Assembly: GCF_023638055.1 (NCBI RefSeq)
Contig: NZ_JAKRVY010000003.1
Span: 62,001-126,000 of the forward strand
Length of the DNA stretch: 64,000 nucleotides
Source: Natranaeroarchaeum aerophilus
GTDB lineage: Archaea; Halobacteriota; Halobacteria; Halobacteriales; Natronoarchaeaceae
Reading direction: 5' to 3'
Below, in pieces: positions 48,529-57,838 of the stretch (position 1 is the stretch's first letter; every line of letters begins with the position of its first letter). A program made the translations under genes and the position numbers. The notes beneath the pieces are model-generated. The model worked only from the letters and a program-made list of their open reading frames with translations, was not told the origin of the DNA and made no database searches.

Positions 48529-48739
48529 ATCGACGTGGGCTATCCCGAGGATGGGGACGAGGCCGAGGAGCGTCTGCAGGCAAAAGAAGAGCGAGCAGCG
48601 CTAGCGGAAGCTGAATAGCGGGTTAGAGGATTTCGTTTCGATTTCTCAGACGGAGTGAACGGTCTGTGCAGGCTTCTGTATCCAGTCCTAGCGAACACGA
48701 TATCGCTTTTTTCAGGACTCGATGTATCTCCACTGGAGT

Positions 48740-48900
48740 GTGAGAGGACGTTTCGTGTGCTTTCTCTATCGAGCGAACAGATCGTAACCCCAGTTCGGGA
48801 ACACGGAGAGAGTACATTTCGTGTGCTTTCTCTATCGAGCGGGAAGAGATAGATCGTAGTTGACCAACACAGAGAGAGAGAGAGAGTACATTTCGTGTGC
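48740..48900 (-). repeat. Three origin iterons, left of orc1 (inverted)
   Basis: GTTTCGTGTGC ending 48760, GAGTACATTTCGTGTGC ending 48826, and again ending 48900; the first two continue TTTCTCTATCGAGCG. These are reverse complements of the iteron GCACACGAAAYGTACTCTC that occurs eight times on the other side of the Orc1/Cdc6 gene. The remainder of 48619-48921 carries no gene. Confidence 0.8.
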
Positions 48901-48921
48901 TTTTGACTGCGAGGGCCCATC

Positions 48922-50118
48922 CTACAGTCTGGTCCCCTCGATCGTTTTGCGCGTCTCGATGACGATCTCGGCGTTGAGGTCCAGTTCGTACTCGTAGTAC
49001 TGCCCGCCGCTCAGTCCCTCGTTGCGCTCGAACCGCTGAAGGAACCCGAGCATGTGGAGATCCGAGAGGTGGTCCTGAATGCTCTTCAGTGTCGTCAGTG
49101 GATCGTCCCCGCATTCGGCCGCGACGTCCTGATAGAGATCATAAATTTCCTTCGAGCGTACAGGTGTCTCGTCGCGCTCTTCGAGATAGGCGATCGTCTC
49201 CAGAATGTACTGGCCGTGGATGGTCTGCTCACGGATTCGGTTGTGTAGCCGACCGCGCTGCACTCGTTCTCGTGCCGCTCCGATGTGGTCGTCCGTGACG
49301 CAGTCGGCTTCCTCGCGAAGTGCGACCTCCCCGCCGACCCGAAGCAAATCGATCGCCTGCCGAGCGTTCCCCATATCCTGTGCAGCAAGCGCCGCGGCTC
49401 GACGTATCGCGGACTGATCACAGGCGTCTTCGGCGAACGCTTGTTCTGCGCGATCCTGCAGGATGGTACCCAGTTCGTTTGCGTTGTACGGACCAAAAGA
49501 GATTTCAGTCTCCATCAGCGTGTCCTTCACTTTCGGCGAGAGCGACGTCCGGAACGTGTAGTTGTTGCTGATCCCGATGATACCCACCTGTGCATTGATA
49601 ATGTGGCCGTTGGCGCGTGCTCGTGGGAGTTCGTAGAGCAACGTGTCGGCGTCGTCGAGGTGGTCGATCTCGTCGAAGACCATCAAGTGGGTCCCGCCGA
49701 TTCGATCGAGTTGCTCGTAGAGCTCGGTGAAGGCATCGCCAGTTCCGAGCCCTCGCTTTGGAAATTTGCTTGCATTCGCGGGGAGTAGTGTGTTGACGAG
49801 CTGTCTAACGACCATGAAGACGGTCTTGCCGTTGCAGTTGATCTCGTGTATGTGCAGTTCGTCAGCTTCGTTCCGGGTTTCAACCTCCGTTTGCAGTGCC
49901 TCCAGAATGTAGGTCGTTACCGCCGTCTTTCCGAGACCGGCTTTCCCGTACAACATTACGTTTTCAGGCTCTCTTCCAAACAGGACGTCCTGCAACGCGT
50001 AACGATATTCCTCGATCTCATCGTCCCGTTCCAGGATAGTCTCCGGCTGGTAGCTCTCTGTTAGCACTTCCTTGTCCGCAAAAATCGTGTCCATCATCCC
50101 GCCGAACGGATTACCCAT
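48922..50118 (-). CDS. Orc1/Cdc6 family replication initiator (1)
   Basis: 398 aa AAA+ ATPase with C-terminal winged helix. Walker A VMLYGKAGLGKTAVTTY (Lys65), Walker B HLMVFDEIDHLDDAD, sensor 1 VGIIGISNNYTF, sensor 2 GNARQAIDLLRVGGEVA, wHTH at about 315-385. It recognises and melts origins together with its own repeats, which surround it here (3 left, 8 right). A TTTTAAATA box lies 26-30 nt before ATG 50118. Diverges from the second Orc gene. Confidence 0.92.
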   Translation of the reverse strand: MGNPFGGMMDTIFADKEVLTESYQPETILERDDEIEEYRYALQDVLFGREPENVMLYGKAGLGKTAVTTYILEALQTEVETRNEADELHIHEINCNGKTVFMVVRQLVNTLLPANASKFPKRGLGTGDAFTELYEQLDRIGGTHLMVFDEIDHLDDADTLLYELPRARANGHIINAQVGIIGISNNYTFRTSLSPKVKDTLMETEISFGPYNANELGTILQDRAEQAFAEDACDQSAIRRAAALAAQDMGNARQAIDLLRVGGEVALREEADCVTDDHIGAARERVQRGRLHNRIREQTIHGQYILETIAYLEERDETPVRSKEIYDLYQDVAAECGDDPLTTLKSIQDHLSDLHMLGFLQRFERNEGLSGGQYYEYELDLNAEIVIETRKTIEGTRL

Positions 50119-50243
50119 TTACTAGTGAATATTTGTTAGACTATTTAAAACCTGATGTTGTTAGTTTCGTTTGCTTTTCGTTGCTCTCTTGCTTCTTCGT
50201 ATCCCGCTGTACAGCGATGGTTTTGTCCGGCAAGATTACAGAA

Positions 50244-50620
50244 AGCACACGAAACGTACTCTCTCACACCTCGGGGCCAACCACCCCATAGCACACGAAA
50301 CGTACTCTCTCACACCTCGGGGCCAACCACCCCATAGCACACGAAACGTACTCTTTGGCCCCTCAGATTGGATCCACTATCCGACGAAAAGCACACGAAA
50401 TGAACTCTGTGATTCTGCTCTCTCACACCCCCGGGGTCAACCACCTCAGAGCATACGAAATGTACTCTCTCACTCAGTTAAGTCGAGCCAGTCGAAGCAG
50501 ACGAAACGTACTCTCTGGCCTCTCAGATTGGAGCCACTATCCGACAAAAAGCACACGAAATGTACTCTCTCACACCTCCGGAGTCAACCACCCCAGAGCA
50601 CACGAAACGTACTCTCACTC
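50244..50620 (+). repeat. Eight-iteron array, probable replication origin
   Basis: Direct copies of GCACACGAAAYGTACTCTC begin at about 50245, 50291, 50337, 50391, 50451, 50497, 50551 and 50598, spaced 46, 46, 54, 60, 46, 54 and 47 bp. Spacers also repeat (CTCACACCTCGGGGCCAACC; CTCAGATTGGATCCACTATC). The array lies in the intergenic region between two divergent Orc1/Cdc6 genes, which is where archaeal origins sit. The motif is unlike the common haloarchaeal ORB with its TGGAAAC core, so it is probably cognate to this Orc protein. Confidence 0.85.
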
Positions 50621-50648
50621 TCGTAAGTTCCATTGCCGAACGTCGAAC

Positions 50649-50790: not shown

Positions 50791-51813
50791 ATGATCCGCG
50801 ATGCTCGCGTCCTCCGTGCTGGTTTTGTCCCGCGAGAAGTCGAGCATCGCGATGCCGAAGTCAATCACCTCTCTAGCGTGCTCGAACCAATTGCCAACGG
50901 CGAACCCGCAGATACCGCCATCGTTACTGGACCCAGTGGAACCGGAAAGACCTGTCTCTCAAAGTTCGTCACCGAACGGCTCCGTGAGGAGGTGCTTGAC
51001 GTCGAGGGCACCTACGTCAACTGCTGGCGCAACTACACCCGATTTCGGGCGCTGTACCAGATTCTCGATGATCTCGGCAAGACGATCGACATCCATCGCC
51101 AGTCGACGCCACACGACGAACTGATCGAACGTCTCCAACAGTACGACGGACCGCGGGCAGTCATCATCCTCGACGAGGTCGACCAGCTCGAAGATCCGGG
51201 AGTACTCTACGATCTACACAGCCTCCCGCAGTTCGCGGTCATCTGTATTGCTAACGAGGAAGAACAGTTGTACAGCCGTGTCGACGACCGGCTCGTGAGT
51301 CGCCTGCGATCCAGCGAGCACGTCCGTATGGACAAGTACCATAACGACCAGCTCTTCGACATCCTGACCGCCCGTGCGAAATGGGGTCTCGAACCCGATA
51401 TCATCACCGACGACCAGCTCTATCACATCGCGGATGCGGCCGCTGGCGACGCCCGGCTGGCGATCGGCATGCTTCGTACCGCAGCCAGCACGGCTGCTCG
51501 CGAAAATCACGACCGGATCACCGGCGACCTACTCCAGGACGCCGCCGGTGATGCCCGCGCACAGATCAGACAGAAGAGCCTCGACTCGCTGACTCCACAC
51601 CAGCAGGTCGTCTACGAGATCGTCAACAAGTACGGCCCGGTCGGACCGAGTGAGATCCACGACCGCTATACTGAGGAAGTCGAAGACCCCCGGACGAAAC
51701 GGACTGTCCGAACATACCTCTCGAAGATGGCCCAGTACAACCTTCTCGAAGCGGAGGGGACGAGCCGGGACCGAGAGTACTCGCTGGTCGAGTCGCCGAC
51801 GGCATCGCAGTAG
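50791..51813 (+). CDS. Orc1/Cdc6-like AAA+ ATPase (2), short form
   Basis: 340 aa. Begins MIRDARVLRAGFVPREVEHR, with Walker A AIVTGPSGTGKTCLSKFV, Walker B AVIILDEVDQLEDPG, sensor 1 FAVICIANEEEQLY and sensor 2 GDARLAIGMLRTAAS. A C-terminal winged helix (SLTPHQQVVYEIVNKYGPVG) ends at SPTASQ. Shorter than typical Orc1 (about 400 aa), as in several accessory haloarchaeal Orc proteins. Divergent from orc1 across the iteron array. First gene of a rightward replication cluster. Confidence 0.88.
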   Translation: MIRDARVLRAGFVPREVEHRDAEVNHLSSVLEPIANGEPADTAIVTGPSGTGKTCLSKFVTERLREEVLDVEGTYVNCWRNYTRFRALYQILDDLGKTIDIHRQSTPHDELIERLQQYDGPRAVIILDEVDQLEDPGVLYDLHSLPQFAVICIANEEEQLYSRVDDRLVSRLRSSEHVRMDKYHNDQLFDILTARAKWGLEPDIITDDQLYHIADAAAGDARLAIGMLRTAASTAARENHDRITGDLLQDAAGDARAQIRQKSLDSLTPHQQVVYEIVNKYGPVGPSEIHDRYTEEVEDPRTKRTVRTYLSKMAQYNLLEAEGTSRDREYSLVESPTASQ

Positions 51814-52062: not shown

Positions 52063-53013
52063 ATGCTCGAAGACGCACGACCAGCATCGGAGTCATTGCG
52101 GGCCAACCGACCGACCAGAAGTGCGGACGAGAATCGCGATCTCGTCGATCGCGCCGATCCAGCGACCGAGAACCAGCTACTCCCGTCTCTCGACGATGGC
52201 ATCACGCTGCTCGACGTCGAGGGGAGTCGGGGCGTCCCGATCCTCCAGTCACTCGTACTCGACCATCTCCTCCTACACGATGGCCCTGCCTTCTGGGTCG
52301 ATGCAAACGGACACGCGACGACCACGACGCTCGCCCGGATCGCGCCCAGCCAACGGTTGCTCGACCGAATTCGGGTGGCACGTGGATTCACCGCCTACCA
52401 GCACTACGGCGCTGTCTGTGATCTCACGACAGCGGTGAACCGGTCAAGCAAGACATCCACGGCCGATATCGGGGCGGTCGGTCGAGAGACACCAATTCGC
52501 GACGAAAACACGTCGCCGCACACCCCAGCTCTCATCGTCGCCCCGGCCGTCGATGCGCAGTACCGCGCCGACGATACGCTCTGTAAGACACATGCCGAGA
52601 CCCTGCAGGCCCGGACGCTCGCCCAGCTATCGACCTACGCCGATGGGTACGACGTTCCAGTGCTCGTCACCCGGAGTGAGCGTAATGACTTCACCGCAGC
52701 AGTCCCAACGGCTGCAGACCATCACATAGAGTGTGAACAGACACGAATGGGTCCACGGCTCCTCGGCGAGGATTTCGAGACGCTCGTCTATCCCGTTGAC
52801 GACGGCGCGTACTATCAGACAACGTTCGCATACTGGCGAGAAGTACTCACAGCTCGCGCTACCCAGGTCGGGATGGACCCGACGACATCGTCGCCCTCGA
52901 CTGCAACTCGGGATGGCGTCGGGACGGGCATCACAGCTGCTGGGGAGAGGGCGTCGACTACTACTGATCCACTGCTCGATGCATGGACGGCAACTGGCAC
53001 TGGAGGCCGATAA
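52063..53013 (+). CDS. RecA-fold protein without Walker A lysine, replication cluster
   Basis: 316 aa. Residues about 48-165 follow a RecA/RadB core: GITLLDVEGSRGVPILQSLV occupies the Walker A position but has no GKT/S, then LLHDGPAFWVDANGHATTTT and RVARGFTAYQHYGAVCDL, and a Walker B-like strand TPALIVAPAV. The C-terminal part is low in order and Thr-rich. It may be a non-hydrolysing recombination or clamp-like partner; this is inference. TATA (GCTTATCC) lies 25-30 nt before ATG 52063. 1-bp gap to the next gene. 51814-52062 holds at most a 35-codon ORF at 51902. Confidence 0.65.
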   Translation: MLEDARPASESLRANRPTRSADENRDLVDRADPATENQLLPSLDDGITLLDVEGSRGVPILQSLVLDHLLLHDGPAFWVDANGHATTTTLARIAPSQRLLDRIRVARGFTAYQHYGAVCDLTTAVNRSSKTSTADIGAVGRETPIRDENTSPHTPALIVAPAVDAQYRADDTLCKTHAETLQARTLAQLSTYADGYDVPVLVTRSERNDFTAAVPTAADHHIECEQTRMGPRLLGEDFETLVYPVDDGAYYQTTFAYWREVLTARATQVGMDPTTSSPSTATRDGVGTGITAAGERASTTTDPLLDAWTATGTGGR

Positions 53014-53014
53014 G

Positions 53015-53332
53015 ATGGGCCGGACGAACCCAACCTATCGGGATGCGTTGCGAGCGATCGAGGAGCGGTGGGCGGACTTTCGACGAGCACTCCGGCGTCG
53101 TGACCAACCCCACTTTGACCAGTTGTTCGAGTACGCCCGCGAGCATGCGGATGCGAGCGGCCTGTTAAACCATCAGAACCCACTCCTGCCCGCGCTACTC
53201 AGCATTGATCTCGAACAGGAAGAACGCCTCGACGACCACGAAGCGCGCCTCGATGAACTGGAAGCCGCGCTCGAAACAGCGGACGATCAGCGGGAGTTAG
53301 TCGATGCTGACCGCATGGAGACCGACCAATGA
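53015..53332 (+). CDS. Small coiled-coil protein of the replication cluster
   Basis: 105 aa: MGRTNPTYRDALRAIEERWA, DFRRALRRRDQPHFDQLFEY, then a conserved PLLPALLSIDLEQEE and a coiled-coil tail (RLDDHEARLDELEAALETAD). No named domain. Lies 1 bp after the RecA-like gene and overlaps the exonuclease gene by 4 bp (ATGA), so it is part of the operon and probably links the partners. Confidence 0.75.
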   Translation: MGRTNPTYRDALRAIEERWADFRRALRRRDQPHFDQLFEYAREHADASGLLNHQNPLLPALLSIDLEQEERLDDHEARLDELEAALETADDQRELVDADRMETDQ

Positions 53333-53988
53333 GTTCCCTCTCGACCGTCGCGTTCGACATCGAGACGACCGGCTTCACGGTCGGTGACCGGCTGACAGTC
53401 GTGGGATTCGATGCTGAGATCGGCTCGCACGTGTTCCTCAACACCGACGGGAAAGCACCCTCCGAAGGGCTCGAAGAGAAAATTAACAACCCGGTGACGA
53501 CGCCCGTGGTGCTCTCGATACACGATAGCGAGGACGCTCTCCTACACGCCGTCACTGAGTTCATTGAGTCGACGCTCGCTGACCGAGATATCAAGCTCGT
53601 CGCGTACAACGGCGAGACGTGGAACGGTGGGTTCGATCTGCCGTTTCTCCGTACACGGCTCAACCACCACGACCTCGGGTGGCCGTTTGAGGACATCCCG
53701 TATATCGAGGCGATGGACGTGTTCCAGTCCCGCTTCAATACCACCGAGAACTCGCTTGTTGCAGTCTACGAGGAACTGATCGGCGGGGACGTAGGAGACG
53801 TCGATCCGTTCAAGGACAGCGCGTCTGCCGTAGATGCGTGGGAGCGCGGTGAGTTTGAAGCCGTCGTGTTGCACAACGTTGCCGACATTCGTCGGACACG
53901 GGCACTGATGGATCTGGCAGAGCGCTATTGCTCAAAATCGGATTTCTCCATGAAGTCGCTCGATCCAGTGGCCAACGACCAACGGTGA
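53329..53988 (+). CDS. Stand-alone DEDD 3'-5' exonuclease (RNase H-like)
   Basis: 219 aa. Exo I AFDIETTGFTVGDRL (DxE), Exo II VAYNGETWNGGFDLPFLRTR (NGxxxxxFD type) and Exo III VVLHNVADIRRTRALMDL (HNxxD). The order and spacing match the proofreading exonuclease domain of family B polymerases, but here as a separate protein. Operon with the RecA-like and coiled-coil genes. It could supply proofreading to the PolB2-like protein encoded nearby, whose own exonuclease site is missing. Confidence 0.85.
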   Translation: MSSLSTVAFDIETTGFTVGDRLTVVGFDAEIGSHVFLNTDGKAPSEGLEEKINNPVTTPVVLSIHDSEDALLHAVTEFIESTLADRDIKLVAYNGETWNGGFDLPFLRTRLNHHDLGWPFEDIPYIEAMDVFQSRFNTTENSLVAVYEELIGGDVGDVDPFKDSASAVDAWERGEFEAVVLHNVADIRRTRALMDLAERYCSKSDFSMKSLDPVANDQR

Positions 53989-54060: not shown

Positions 54061-55455
54061 CTAGGACGACTCTGAAAGAAGCGTCTCCAATTCGGACAGG
54101 CTAAAGAGCGACCAGTTGTCGTCAAGTGCTTCGGCTACGCCGTCGGCGAACCCAGCCTTCGAGAACAGGGCAAATTCCTGGTCGCGCTGGTCTGGCCCCC
54201 AGCGAACTCTGTCAGCTTTGTCGCGCAACTTCGCAGCGACCGAGTAGCCGATGGGATCAGTTGTCCACTTACATTCTGCGAGCAGTATCCGGTCATCGTT
54301 TGGCGCAAGGCCGACGATATCGATCTCGTCTTCGCCGTACCACCATCGACCGACTTCGGAGTACGGCCCGAGTTCGTCGCTTCGAATTGCTTCCCAGACC
54401 GCTTCTTGACAGACATCCTCGAACGTCGTTGCGACATGGTCGGGAAGTGCCGGTTCGATTGTCCCCTCATACACGACTGATGGAGCTTCCTCGATACTCG
54501 ACCGGTTGGGTTCGACAAAACGGAACCAGAATCGCAGGAACTCATCTGCAACCTGATATCGGGAGCGTTTGGATTGTTTTGCCGACGCAGTTACTGGGAC
54601 TTCCCGATCGATGAGACGCAGTCGTCGAAGGGTCTGCAAGTACTTCGACAATGGGCCAGAACCGATGCCAGTCGCGCCAGCGATTTCGTTCGGGGTTGTG
54701 TGCCCGGTCGCGACTGCCTCAAGGATACTCATATATCGAGCCGGGGTTCGTAGCTCGGTGCGTAGTAGAAACTCGGGCTCGTTGTAGAGGACAGCTGTTG
54801 GTGAGAGGATCTCAGTTTGGATGTTTTCAGCGAGTGATCGGGCGTAGTCAAAGAGCTGTATATACATCGGAGTCCCACCCGTGATCGCGTACGACCGTAT
54901 CGCGTCGTCGAGATCGTACGTGAGGAGCTCGCAAGCCTCTCGAAAGGAGAACGGTTTGAGATCTATCTGCCCTGTTCGGCGGCCGTAGAGCGGGCTCTCG
55001 TGGCCAAGAATCTCCGACTCCATTGTACTGATGCTGGAGCCACACAGCACGACCATTGATTCGGTGTTCTGGAGCTGTTGGTCGACGAACGACTGGACGT
55101 ACGAGAGGAGCGAATCGTTCTCTTCGACCAGATACGGGAACTCATCGATGACGACGACGAGTTGCTCTAACGCGAGCTTCTCACCGAGGTACTCGAATGC
55201 CTCATCCCATCCATCAACGCGGGGGATTCGGTCGTTACAATACGTAGCAATTTGTTCAACGAACTTCTCACGTTGTCGGTGTTCGGCTTCTTGTGATGCG
55301 AGAAAGTAGATATGTGGCTGATCGGAACAGAACTCTTTGAGGAGTTCCGTCTTCCCAACACGGCGGCGACCATAGACGACGAAAAACTCGTGGCCCGGCG
55401 ATTCGAACGCTGTTTCGAGGGCGTCGAGTTCCTCGTGCCGATCGTGGAAGGTCAT
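54061..55455 (-). CDS. Archaeal AAA ATPase with C-terminal DUF234 nuclease-like domain (2)
   Basis: 464 aa, the same architecture as the protein at 44153: Walker A VVYGRRRVGKTELLKEF, Walker B LVVVIDEFPYLVEEN, sensor VLCGSSISTMESEIL, GGTPMYIQLF, wHTH (NEIAGATGIGSGPLSKYLQT), DUF234 with DIVGLAPNDDRILLAECKWT. It sits on the opposite strand between the exonuclease and PolB genes and so interrupts an otherwise rightward cluster, as an inserted gene would. Paralogues diverge clearly (same motifs, different spacer sequences). Confidence 0.85.
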   Translation of the reverse strand: MTFHDRHEELDALETAFESPGHEFFVVYGRRRVGKTELLKEFCSDQPHIYFLASQEAEHRQREKFVEQIATYCNDRIPRVDGWDEAFEYLGEKLALEQLVVVIDEFPYLVEENDSLLSYVQSFVDQQLQNTESMVVLCGSSISTMESEILGHESPLYGRRTGQIDLKPFSFREACELLTYDLDDAIRSYAITGGTPMYIQLFDYARSLAENIQTEILSPTAVLYNEPEFLLRTELRTPARYMSILEAVATGHTTPNEIAGATGIGSGPLSKYLQTLRRLRLIDREVPVTASAKQSKRSRYQVADEFLRFWFRFVEPNRSSIEEAPSVVYEGTIEPALPDHVATTFEDVCQEAVWEAIRSDELGPYSEVGRWWYGEDEIDIVGLAPNDDRILLAECKWTTDPIGYSVAAKLRDKADRVRWGPDQRDQEFALFSKAGFADGVAEALDDNWSLFSLSELETLLSESS

Positions 55456-55672: not shown

Positions 55673-57838
55673 ATGCCGTTTACGATCGACTTTCTGGACG
55701 ATGGGCGCGTTCTGGAGTGGGAGGCAACCACTGCTGGCGCAGTCGTCACCGAGACTGACGAGTACACGCCACGGTTCTACGTTGCTACTCGCGATCCTAA
55801 CGCCGATCTCGATCTCACGGCACTCCAATCGATGTACGACCAGCATCCGGACGTTGACGCGACCGAGATGGTTTCTCGACGTCCCGGTTTTCGACGTGAT
55901 GAGGAGTCGGTCCTCGCTGTCGACGTCGAGCACGTCAACCGCGTCACTGGGCTCGCCCGGCAAACACGGCAACTGTCAGAGTATCCGGTTGGTGACCTTG
56001 CCTGCTTCAATGTGGACCTCTCACGGGAGTTCCGCTACTGTCTGGAGAACAGCATCGATCCGACGCCAGCGAACGAGCTATCGACGCTCCGACTCGGCGT
56101 CCCGGTGACCGAGACGAGCAACGACGTGTACGAGGAGTTGACTGTCGCTGGCGAAACCATCACTGGGTCGGTGAGGGATATCCTCACTGGCGTCCAGACG
56201 AAAATCGAGACACGTGATCCCGATGTCCTGGTGTGCTCGACGAGCGACATCATTCCGACGCTGTACGAGATGGCGACGGCGGCGAACATCGACGAGTTCA
56301 CGCTGAGTCGGTGGCCCGGCGTGGACTACCAGCAACTTGCGAGCCAGTCGACGTACTCGAGTTACGGTCAGGTGGGACACTCCCCGGCGCGGTACAACGT
56401 GCCCGGTCGGGCCATCGTCGACGAGTCGAACACGTTCTTTTACGGGGAGACGAACCTCGACGGCGTCCTCGATCTCGTGTCACGCTCGACGAAGCCGGTC
56501 CAGGAACTCGCGTGGGCGTCGATCGGGAACGTGCTCACGGCGATCCAGATCTGCGAGGCTCACGACCGGGGCGTCCTCGTCCCGTGGAACTCCTGGCGTC
56601 ACGAGTTCTACAAGCCGATGGGGACGCTTCACGACGCCGACCGGGGTGGGTTCATCTTCGCGCCCGAAGTCGGCTTACACGAGAACGTCCACGAGCTCGA
56701 CTTTTCGAGCCTGTATCCGAATATCATCTGCACGCGAAACGTCTCCCCAGATGTGATTCGCTGTGACTGCCACAGCGACCGCGAGGACGTCCCCGAACTC
56801 GGCTACTCGATCTGTGACACGCGAGGCTATCTCGTCGACGTATTGCAACCGATCATCGACGCTCGCGACGAGATCAAGACAGCCATCCACCGTGAAAACC
56901 AACGTGACAATCCCGACGAGGATCGGCTGGCGGAACTCGAAGGGCGGTCGGGAGCGCTGAAATGGATCCTCGTCGCTTGCTTCGGCTATCAAGGGTTCAG
57001 CAACGCAAAGTTCGGCCGCATCGAGTGCCACGAGGCGATCAACGCATTCGCTCGCGAGATTCTGCTAGAAGCCAAAGAGCGGCTGGAAGCCAGCGGGTGG
57101 CGCGTTGTCCACGGTATCGTCGACTCAATCTGGGTGACACCGGATCCCGACGTCGACGACGATGAGCGCGAGGCCCTCGAAACCCTCGCAACGAACATCA
57201 CTGAGGCGGTCGAGATCCGGCTCGAACACGAGGCACAGTATGACTGGGTGGCGTTCGTCCCCCAGCGCGAGAGCGATGCTGGCGCACTGACCAAGTACTT
57301 CGGGAAAGTTGCAGGTGCGGACGAGTTCAAGATCAGAGGTCTCGAAGCCCGACAACGCACCACTCCGCCGTTCATCGAGGATGTCCAGCGAGACTGCCTC
57401 GACCGGCTTGCTGGCACACGATCTCCCGACGCAGTGCTCAGACGTCTCGAACGAGCAATCGAGGCACTGCATAACGGAGAGGTTGCAGTGGACCGACTCG
57501 TCAAGCGCAATCGAGTCTCAAAGCCACTCGAAGGCTATACGCAGAACACCCAGAACGTGGCAGCCCTGAAGCGGGCACGCGATCACGGTCTCGCTGTTCA
57601 TCCGGGCCAAGATATCGAGTATGTCGTTGTTGACGACGAGAAGACCTCTCGGGACCGCGTCTCACTTGTCCATGAAGATGTCGAGACCTACGACGCCTCG
57701 TACTACGAGACGCAGCTCGTCCGAGCTGTTGAAAGCGTCTTGTCACCGCTCGGCTGGGACCGAACGGAGATTCAACGTACCATCGCTGAGACTCGGGAAA
57801 TGAACCTGTCTGCCTTCACCGAGTTCGACGACAGCTAA
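55673..57838 (+). CDS. PolB2-like family B DNA polymerase, motif C degenerate
   Basis: 721 aa. Motif A is intact (ELDFSSLYPNI, about 341-351). Motif B region KWILVACFGYQGFSNAKFG (about 429-447). Motif C reads HGIVDSIWV (about 480) instead of YGDTDSVFV, so the first catalytic Asp is replaced by Ile while the second remains. The N-terminal exonuclease motif DxE is absent (VDLSREFRYCLENSIDPTP in its place). Archaeal PolB2 proteins are described as having lost catalytic residues; this fits. Same strand as the exonuclease operon and probably its partner. Confidence 0.85.
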   Translation: MPFTIDFLDDGRVLEWEATTAGAVVTETDEYTPRFYVATRDPNADLDLTALQSMYDQHPDVDATEMVSRRPGFRRDEESVLAVDVEHVNRVTGLARQTRQLSEYPVGDLACFNVDLSREFRYCLENSIDPTPANELSTLRLGVPVTETSNDVYEELTVAGETITGSVRDILTGVQTKIETRDPDVLVCSTSDIIPTLYEMATAANIDEFTLSRWPGVDYQQLASQSTYSSYGQVGHSPARYNVPGRAIVDESNTFFYGETNLDGVLDLVSRSTKPVQELAWASIGNVLTAIQICEAHDRGVLVPWNSWRHEFYKPMGTLHDADRGGFIFAPEVGLHENVHELDFSSLYPNIICTRNVSPDVIRCDCHSDREDVPELGYSICDTRGYLVDVLQPIIDARDEIKTAIHRENQRDNPDEDRLAELEGRSGALKWILVACFGYQGFSNAKFGRIECHEAINAFAREILLEAKERLEASGWRVVHGIVDSIWVTPDPDVDDDEREALETLATNITEAVEIRLEHEAQYDWVAFVPQRESDAGALTKYFGKVAGADEFKIRGLEARQRTTPPFIEDVQRDCLDRLAGTRSPDAVLRRLERAIEALHNGEVAVDRLVKRNRVSKPLEGYTQNTQNVAALKRARDHGLAVHPGQDIEYVVVDDEKTSRDRVSLVHEDVETYDASYYETQLVRAVESVLSPLGWDRTEIQRTIAETREMNLSAFTEFDDS

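Follow-up and report, generated by a model that had tools for sequence, protein, structure and literature searches.

The window analysed here is a stretch of 64,000 nucleotides from the haloarchaeon Natranaeroarchaeum aerophilus (contig NZ_JAKRVY010000003.1, positions 62,001 to 126,000 of the forward strand), in which the gene for a stand-alone exonuclease-like protein, hereafter EXO, lies among the genes of a PolB2 operon (Table 1). The reading frame of EXO is intact, and the extent given for it in an earlier note on this DNA was exact. The small gene immediately upstream, PPB2, had been given too early a start by the ORF lister (a 199-aa frame from 52733). PPB2 N-termini read MGRT in 15 of the 16 sequences aligned and MRRT in one, the window copy carrying MGRT, which is described as a conserved motif of the PolB2 partner PPB2 in passages of PMC11791011. 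The preceding iRadA-like gene was compared as a profile with the PDB, where all 28 matches at E<=1 were RadB, RadA, Rad51 or Dmc1 chains, these matches being weak (best 7.6e-5). The polymerase downstream scores 1403 bits against NCBIfam PRK05761.1-4, which places it in the PolB2 group, and orc genes have been described as neighbours of archaeal PolB2 operons (passages of PMC4104785). The MGRT-bearing PPB2, the profile matching the RadA family only, the PolB2 motifs and the orc neighbours therefore identify the window locus as the known PolB2 "mutasome" set (orc/cdc6, iRadA, PPB2, PolB2) with EXO inserted between PPB2 and PolB2.

Table 1. Features of the PolB2 operon and its surroundings in the window
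Feature	Position	Strand	Basis
Second orc1/cdc6 gene, divergent from the first	48922..50118	-	
Three inverted copies of the origin-box-like repeat	48735-48903		
Eight ~38-nt repeats (AGCACACGAAACGTACTCTC core), origin-recognition-box-like	50238..50628	+	
orc1/cdc6 family gene, arORC2-like position heading the operon in relatives	50791..51813	+	domain match
iRadA-like inactive RadA homologue, 316 aa, no GxxxxGK[ST] motif visible	52063..53013	+	profile search of PDB
PPB2 (arCOG07300-like small helical PolB2 partner), 105 aa, N-terminal MGRT	53015..53332	+	MGRT motif, position
EXO, stand-alone DEDD-type 3'-5' exonuclease-like protein, 219 aa	53329..53988	+	intact complete ORF; PF13482 match, alignment, predicted fold
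ATPase_2/DUF234 gene between EXO and PolB2, matches PADLOC candidate defence family PDC-S27	54061..55455	-	
PolB2-group family-B DNA polymerase, 721 aa, ExoI/ExoII lost, motif A DFSSLYP intact, motif C GIVDS	55673..57838	+	NCBIfam, motifs

Mutasome operons of the order iRadA-PPB2-PolB2, often with an orc1/cdc6 gene, are described from archaea and some bacteria in passages of PMC4104785 and PMC11791011, and the window shares with them the genes and their order, the MGRT motif, the decayed exonuclease domain of the polymerase, its altered DxD and the orc neighbour. What the window adds is a DEDD exonuclease gene translationally coupled to PPB2. The operon neighbours named in the same passages are SRAP, DUF72, lexA and orc1/cdc6, with no exonuclease among them, and a literature search covering titles, abstracts and passages of main text turned up no account of such a gene in these operons; its wiring into the known operon appears to be what is new here. 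The exonuclease does belong to the same operon as the polymerase, though "beside" it, as first described, is too close a term, the two being 1.7 kb apart with the opposite-strand ATPase gene in between. At the head of the operon, the two orc/cdc6 genes diverge and are bracketed by repeats of ~25-38 nt, eight of them direct and three inverted, which marks 48735-50628 as a likely replication origin adjoining the PolB2 operon.

All three Exo motifs are complete in EXO, as the earlier note had it, and are invariant in the 54 family members aligned: D10-I11-E12 (ExoI), G101-F102-D103 (ExoII) and H182-N183-x-x-D186 (ExoIII), together with N94. The predicted metal ligands are D10, E12, D103 and D186. 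The ExoIII motif of DEDDy proofreading domains carries Tyr, and here a correction is due: EXO has the four-residue spacing of the DEDDy type with His in place of the Tyr (H182-x3-D186), and Tyr-x3-Asp occurs in none of the 54 aligned sequences. Relatives of EXO with identity of up to 94% occur in other haloarchaeal genomes, many copies being plasmid-borne, and public records label the gene either "ribonuclease H-like domain-containing protein" or "hypothetical protein".

The window protein scores 24.8 bits against RNase_H_2 (PF13482), above the curated cut-off of 22, and 18.7 bits against the family-B polymerase exonuclease domain (PF03104), below the cut-off of 23; among six EXO relatives scanned with PF13482, two were above the cut-off, three were below it and one gave no match. 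Profile-profile comparison likewise placed EXO nearest to a haloarchaeal family of stand-alone RNase_H_2 proteins (probability 97.5, E 8e-12, 93 columns), followed by a second RNase_H_2 family (2e-5) and the exonuclease domains of haloarchaeal PolB1 (1e-3). With the N-terminus of PolB2 no profile similarity was detectable (E 0.19), a comparison in which signal may have been lost, as the control of PolB1 exonuclease against the PolB2 N-terminus was also weak (0.016). EXO thus shares with the stand-alone RNase H-like nucleases of PF13482 both the Pfam match and the nearest haloarchaeal profile, and differs from them in the invariant His for Tyr in ExoIII, a conserved C-terminal SDFxMKSL motif and its linkage to PolB2.

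A sequence search of solved structures with EXO returned no matches, while a fold search succeeded. The AlphaFold model (pLDDT 90.8, pTM 0.89) was compared using Foldseek and VIA-align, and family-B polymerase exonuclease domains ranked first, the best match being that of yeast Pol epsilon (Z 20.4, with 18% identity and 2.3 A over 191 residues), with further matches to E. coli Pol II (Z 19.1) and KOD (Z 18.8). No dedicated RNase_H_2 structure stood among the VIA matches listed, an absence to which no meaning attaches. The matches span residues 1-209 of the model, and a fold like that of the proofreading domain in family-B polymerases is accordingly predicted for EXO.

The archaeal equivalent of Pol zeta is PolB2, a family-B extender whose proofreading domain is dead. 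The window polymerase was previously said to show no DxE in its N-terminus, which holds: a profile alignment to P. abyssi PolB reads "..TLRLSVPVTE" at ExoI against "..FLAVDIET", and the ExoII position is CSTSDIIP. The further statement that the polymerase lacks the domain altogether is contradicted by the N-terminal and exonuclease-core region still present in this protein, whose whole length is ~50 aa below that of typical archaeal PolBs. In the profile alignment with P. abyssi PolB, PolB2 can be followed through its N-terminal domain as far as ExoI, the first segment scoring only 8 bits. The full-length model is poor (mean pLDDT 58), and its chain matches archaeal PolBs with high rmsd; only the block of residues 136-220 was used, in which strands and helices are confidently modelled (block confidence ~66-92). 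PolB2 has therefore kept a decayed exonuclease domain in which ExoI and ExoII are destroyed; the domain has not been lost.

Across the PolB2 set the motifs read SVPV or GVPV at ExoI, CSTS[ED]IIP at ExoII and GIVDS at motif C, where the first Asp of the DxD is replaced in the window protein, an alteration described for most PolB2s. ExoI and ExoII are alike in 25 PolB2s accompanied by EXO of the operon clade (the window included) and in 29 with no EXO in the fetched stretch, and the decay of PolB2 is therefore older than the arrival of EXO. A DxE string was present in the searched region of two of these 29: the PolB2 of locus L114 (7924-10005) keeps LDIEET at ExoI and has no ExoII Asp, and may be seen as an intermediate of exonuclease decay, while that of L119 reads SIDAPP at ExoI and has its DxE string elsewhere. 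PolB2s outside haloarchaea are also described as decayed (passages of PMC11791011 and PMC8764526), and Sulfolobus Dpo2, as reported in the latter, has no detectable exonuclease activity and extends mismatches. In a passage of the knock-out paper on strain NRC-1 (PMC1906834), conserved exonuclease motifs are attributed to its PolB2 on the basis of data not shown. Neither iRadA nor PPB2 is annotated next to polB2 on pNRC200 of Halobacterium salinarum NRC-1 (L275:8873-13253), and of EXO this locus holds only a 79-residue fragment, meaning that this early knock-out did not test a complete mutasome locus.

The start codon of EXO shares the sequence ATGA (53329-53332) with the stop of PPB2, and this arrangement is conserved. 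Among 49 distinct EXOs of the operon clade, the gap between PPB2 and EXO is -4 bp in 41, -1 in two, -8 in one and -14 in two, PPB2 not being found in the remaining three. The order PPB2-EXO-PolB2 on one strand is found in the 33 operon-clade cases with PolB2 on the fetched stretch, the distance from EXO to PolB2 ranging from 2 to 8209 bp (median 2063). In loci with no EXO, the PPB2 stop lies 2 bp before PolB2 in 16 of 21.

Co-occurrence was assessed in 292 genomes of the class, with a PolB2 match defined at E 1e-20 and an operon-clade EXO as a full-length sequence of >=60% identity. EXO of any clade was found in 82 genomes and PolB2 in 201. The distribution is not that of a gene residing mainly in genomes without PolB2, which would have spoken against the connection originally proposed: 71 of the 82 EXO genomes have a PolB2 match, as do all 31 with an operon-clade EXO, compared with 170 of the 261 others (Fisher p 6e-6, uncorrected for kinship; p 1e-6, equally uncorrected, at a stricter PolB2 cut-off). 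For the other EXO genomes, 40 of 51 have PolB2 and the association is weak (p 0.03, or 0.08 at the stricter cut-off, kinship uncorrected). Operon-clade EXO is optional, being absent from 170 of the 201 PolB2 genomes. Other EXO lineages have also entered PolB2 operons at different sites: between iRadA and PPB2 in Halohasta salina (L192, order iRadA-EXO-PPB2-PolB2), directly after PolB2 in Salinibaculum (L217), and, in L199 and L211, in divergent orientation to the orc gene with which the operon begins. Of all the arguments for a functional tie, this recurrence is the strongest.

Distances over 24 loci were compared by Mantel tests, which gave a rho of 0.83 for iRadA-PolB2, 0.27 for EXO-PolB2 and 0.26 for EXO-iRadA; to judge from these sequence distances, EXO does not share the history of PolB2. 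When PPB2 was split at about residue 78 (23 loci, L077 dropped), its core followed iRadA (0.73) and PolB2 (0.54), whereas its tail followed EXO (0.50) and hardly iRadA (0.20), and EXO and the PPB2 tail therefore move as a cassette. Another PPB2 tail is common to most of the operons with no EXO. The tail may be a co-adapted dock for EXO or a mere hitchhiker. By a quick method, with long branches flagged, at least 12 changes in the presence of EXO are needed on the PolB2 tree, and supported branches make four of these unavoidable. The gap between EXO and PolB2 is an insertion hotspot (54061-55455 in the window, and the same gap in L061-L130), which carries as cargo a wHTH DUF7342 gene with a 160-aa gene, IS605 TnpB, DnaJ or, in the window, the PDC-S27 ATPase, and also leftover fragments of PPB2, EXO and PolB2.

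A tree of 106 EXOs resolves the PPB2-coupled group and two further clades, one of 36 rows (support 99) and one of 15 (support 100), the latter partly beside orc genes. In the 36-row sister clade EXO is part of a tight, conserved cluster, in which it is joined by four small genes and one for an HNH nuclease; the example L181:6152-11896 has a CxxC-bearing protein of ~192 aa, two RAMP-like proteins rich in glycine and one protein of ~300 aa along with EXO and HNH. Three large RAMP-like genes are present in 26 of the 41 named loci L180-L220, which include loci of other EXO clades, and eight tree rows of the 36-row clade lie near BREX genes by our own rule (e.g. PglZ-BrxL in L190). Glycine-rich GGARNxGxG motifs are a feature of RAMP proteins. 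One cluster protein matches Cmr3 weakly (best 3.2e-5), PDB profile searches with two of the cluster's proteins yielded nothing of use, and the putative RAMPs had no matches in Pfam and NCBIfam. Haloarchaeal HRAMP modules, in which Cas5/Cas7-like genes of CRISPR origin accompany nucleases, are described in passages of PMC8730458 and PMC12669027, and the sister-clade cluster is probably such a CRISPR-derived module because of the weak Cmr3 matches, the GGARNxGxG motifs, the HNH partner and the host range. What resembles HRAMP is the setting of the sister clade, where a haloarchaeal cluster includes an HNH nuclease and a protein weakly similar to Cmr3; the window EXO belongs to a different clade with different partners and has the PolB2 operon, rather than Cas5/Cas7-like RAMP genes, as its neighbourhood. 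In 246 genomes of the phylum no EXO was found outside Halobacteria, the 14 genomes with EXO all belonging to the window's own order. A viral origin was considered and rejected: viral contigs gave two weak partial matches, and annotated phages only the PolB exonuclease domain of HCTV-6/HCTV-15 (36% over 48%).

The reading that we favour, to which we would give about an even chance of being correct, is that EXO serves a haloarchaeal variant of the PolB2 mutasome as an added nuclease for editing or for processing 3' ends. An accessory DEDD 3'-5' exonuclease would have been recruited into the operon, its synthesis would be tied to that of PPB2, the bridging subunit, and it would act in trans on the 3' ends on which the exonuclease-dead PolB2 extender works, trimming primer ends that are unextendable or wrongly extended and so providing editing or 3'-end clearance in lesion bypass. 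The conserved residues, the predicted fold, the PPB2 coupling, the PolB2 co-occurrence, the entries of other lineages and the dead PolB2 site form the observed basis for this role, in which EXO would be catalytically active, would have DNA as its substrate, would make physical contact with its partners and would edit; the EXO-specific C-terminal tail of PPB2 is a candidate dock. The arrangement may be likened to DnaQ, the epsilon subunit of Pol III, in that a separate 3'-5' exonuclease gene would serve a polymerase (there Pol III alpha) with no active exonuclease of its own; it differs in the PolB-type exonuclease fold and HxxxD spacing of EXO and in its polymerase being a family-B extender. 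Against the editing role stand the optional nature of EXO, a history unlike that of PolB2 and iRadA, the unrelated cargo often found between EXO and PolB2, and the sister clades in clusters without PolB2. An extender polymerase must moreover keep mismatched ends, and a tight proofreader could defeat its purpose.

The same mobility invites the main rival explanation, a possible though somewhat doubtful one, in which EXO, a nuclease cassette of defence or mobile type, uses the PPB2-PolB2 junction as a place to land, borrows the translation of PPB2 and works independently of PolB2, as its RAMP-cluster relatives would. It gains from the sister clade, which makes up 36 of the 106 tree rows and lies in a conserved RAMP-like cluster with HNH, sometimes beside BREX PglZ-BrxL, from the varied cargo of the EXO-PolB2 hotspot, and from EXO moving with the PPB2 tail and being carried by many plasmids; yet the co-occurrence with PolB2 in every operon-clade genome, the conserved 4-bp coupling and the repeated entry at other sites of the operon exceed what a neutral landing site would predict. 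A role alongside the linked orc/cdc6 proteins in starting or restarting replication, in place of one with PolB2, appears improbable. Orc genes do flank the window operon, and 9 of the 106 tree rows adjoin an orc gene with no PolB2 operon in the fetched stretch, several of them divergently, but the operon clade is coupled to PPB2 and not to orc, and most EXO members in RAMP clusters have no orc gene nearby.

Least probable by far, and rejected here, is the origin put forward in the earlier note, namely that the exonuclease domain of PolB2 itself was split off and survives as a subunit. The PolB-type fold of EXO and the dead site of the polymerase would fit such a split, but PolB2 still has its decayed domain, which is equally decayed with and without EXO, the profile affinity of EXO is to RNase_H_2 rather than to PolB2, EXO has other homes and is confined in the phylum sample to a single order, and its distances correlate poorly with those of PolB2. 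The part of that proposal which stands is the functional link, supported by the 4-bp overlap with PPB2 and by co-occurrence.

A more elaborate form of the editing reading, which we put forward only tentatively, is a mutasome with an added editor, present in some of the haloarchaea, in which EXO would be docked on the error-prone, exonuclease-dead PolB2 via the PPB2 trimer by the EXO-specific tail and exchanged as a cassette between operons, so that lineages could alternate between bypass polymerases with and without editing, the same family, with His for the ExoIII Tyr, also serving a CRISPR-derived RAMP module. If lineages do carry a dedicated exonuclease in the operon, the presence or absence of one gene could tune damage-induced mutation rates, and natural EXO-plus and EXO-minus operons, with PolB2s ~85% identical, offer a ready-made comparison. 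The gene pools of repair and defence would also be connected by one nuclease family being divided between the mutasome operon and a cluster of probable CRISPR descent.

Two further loci deserve mention. In Halobacterium hubeiense (L230:5149-7463) the orc/cdc6 and iRadA genes of an EXO-bearing PolB2 operon are separated by a gene for SRAP (SOS response-associated peptidase) and one for a further RNase H-like protein of larger size, and a contig labelled as a Clostridia MAG (L159) carries haloarchaeal iRadA-PPB2-EXO and is probably mis-binned.
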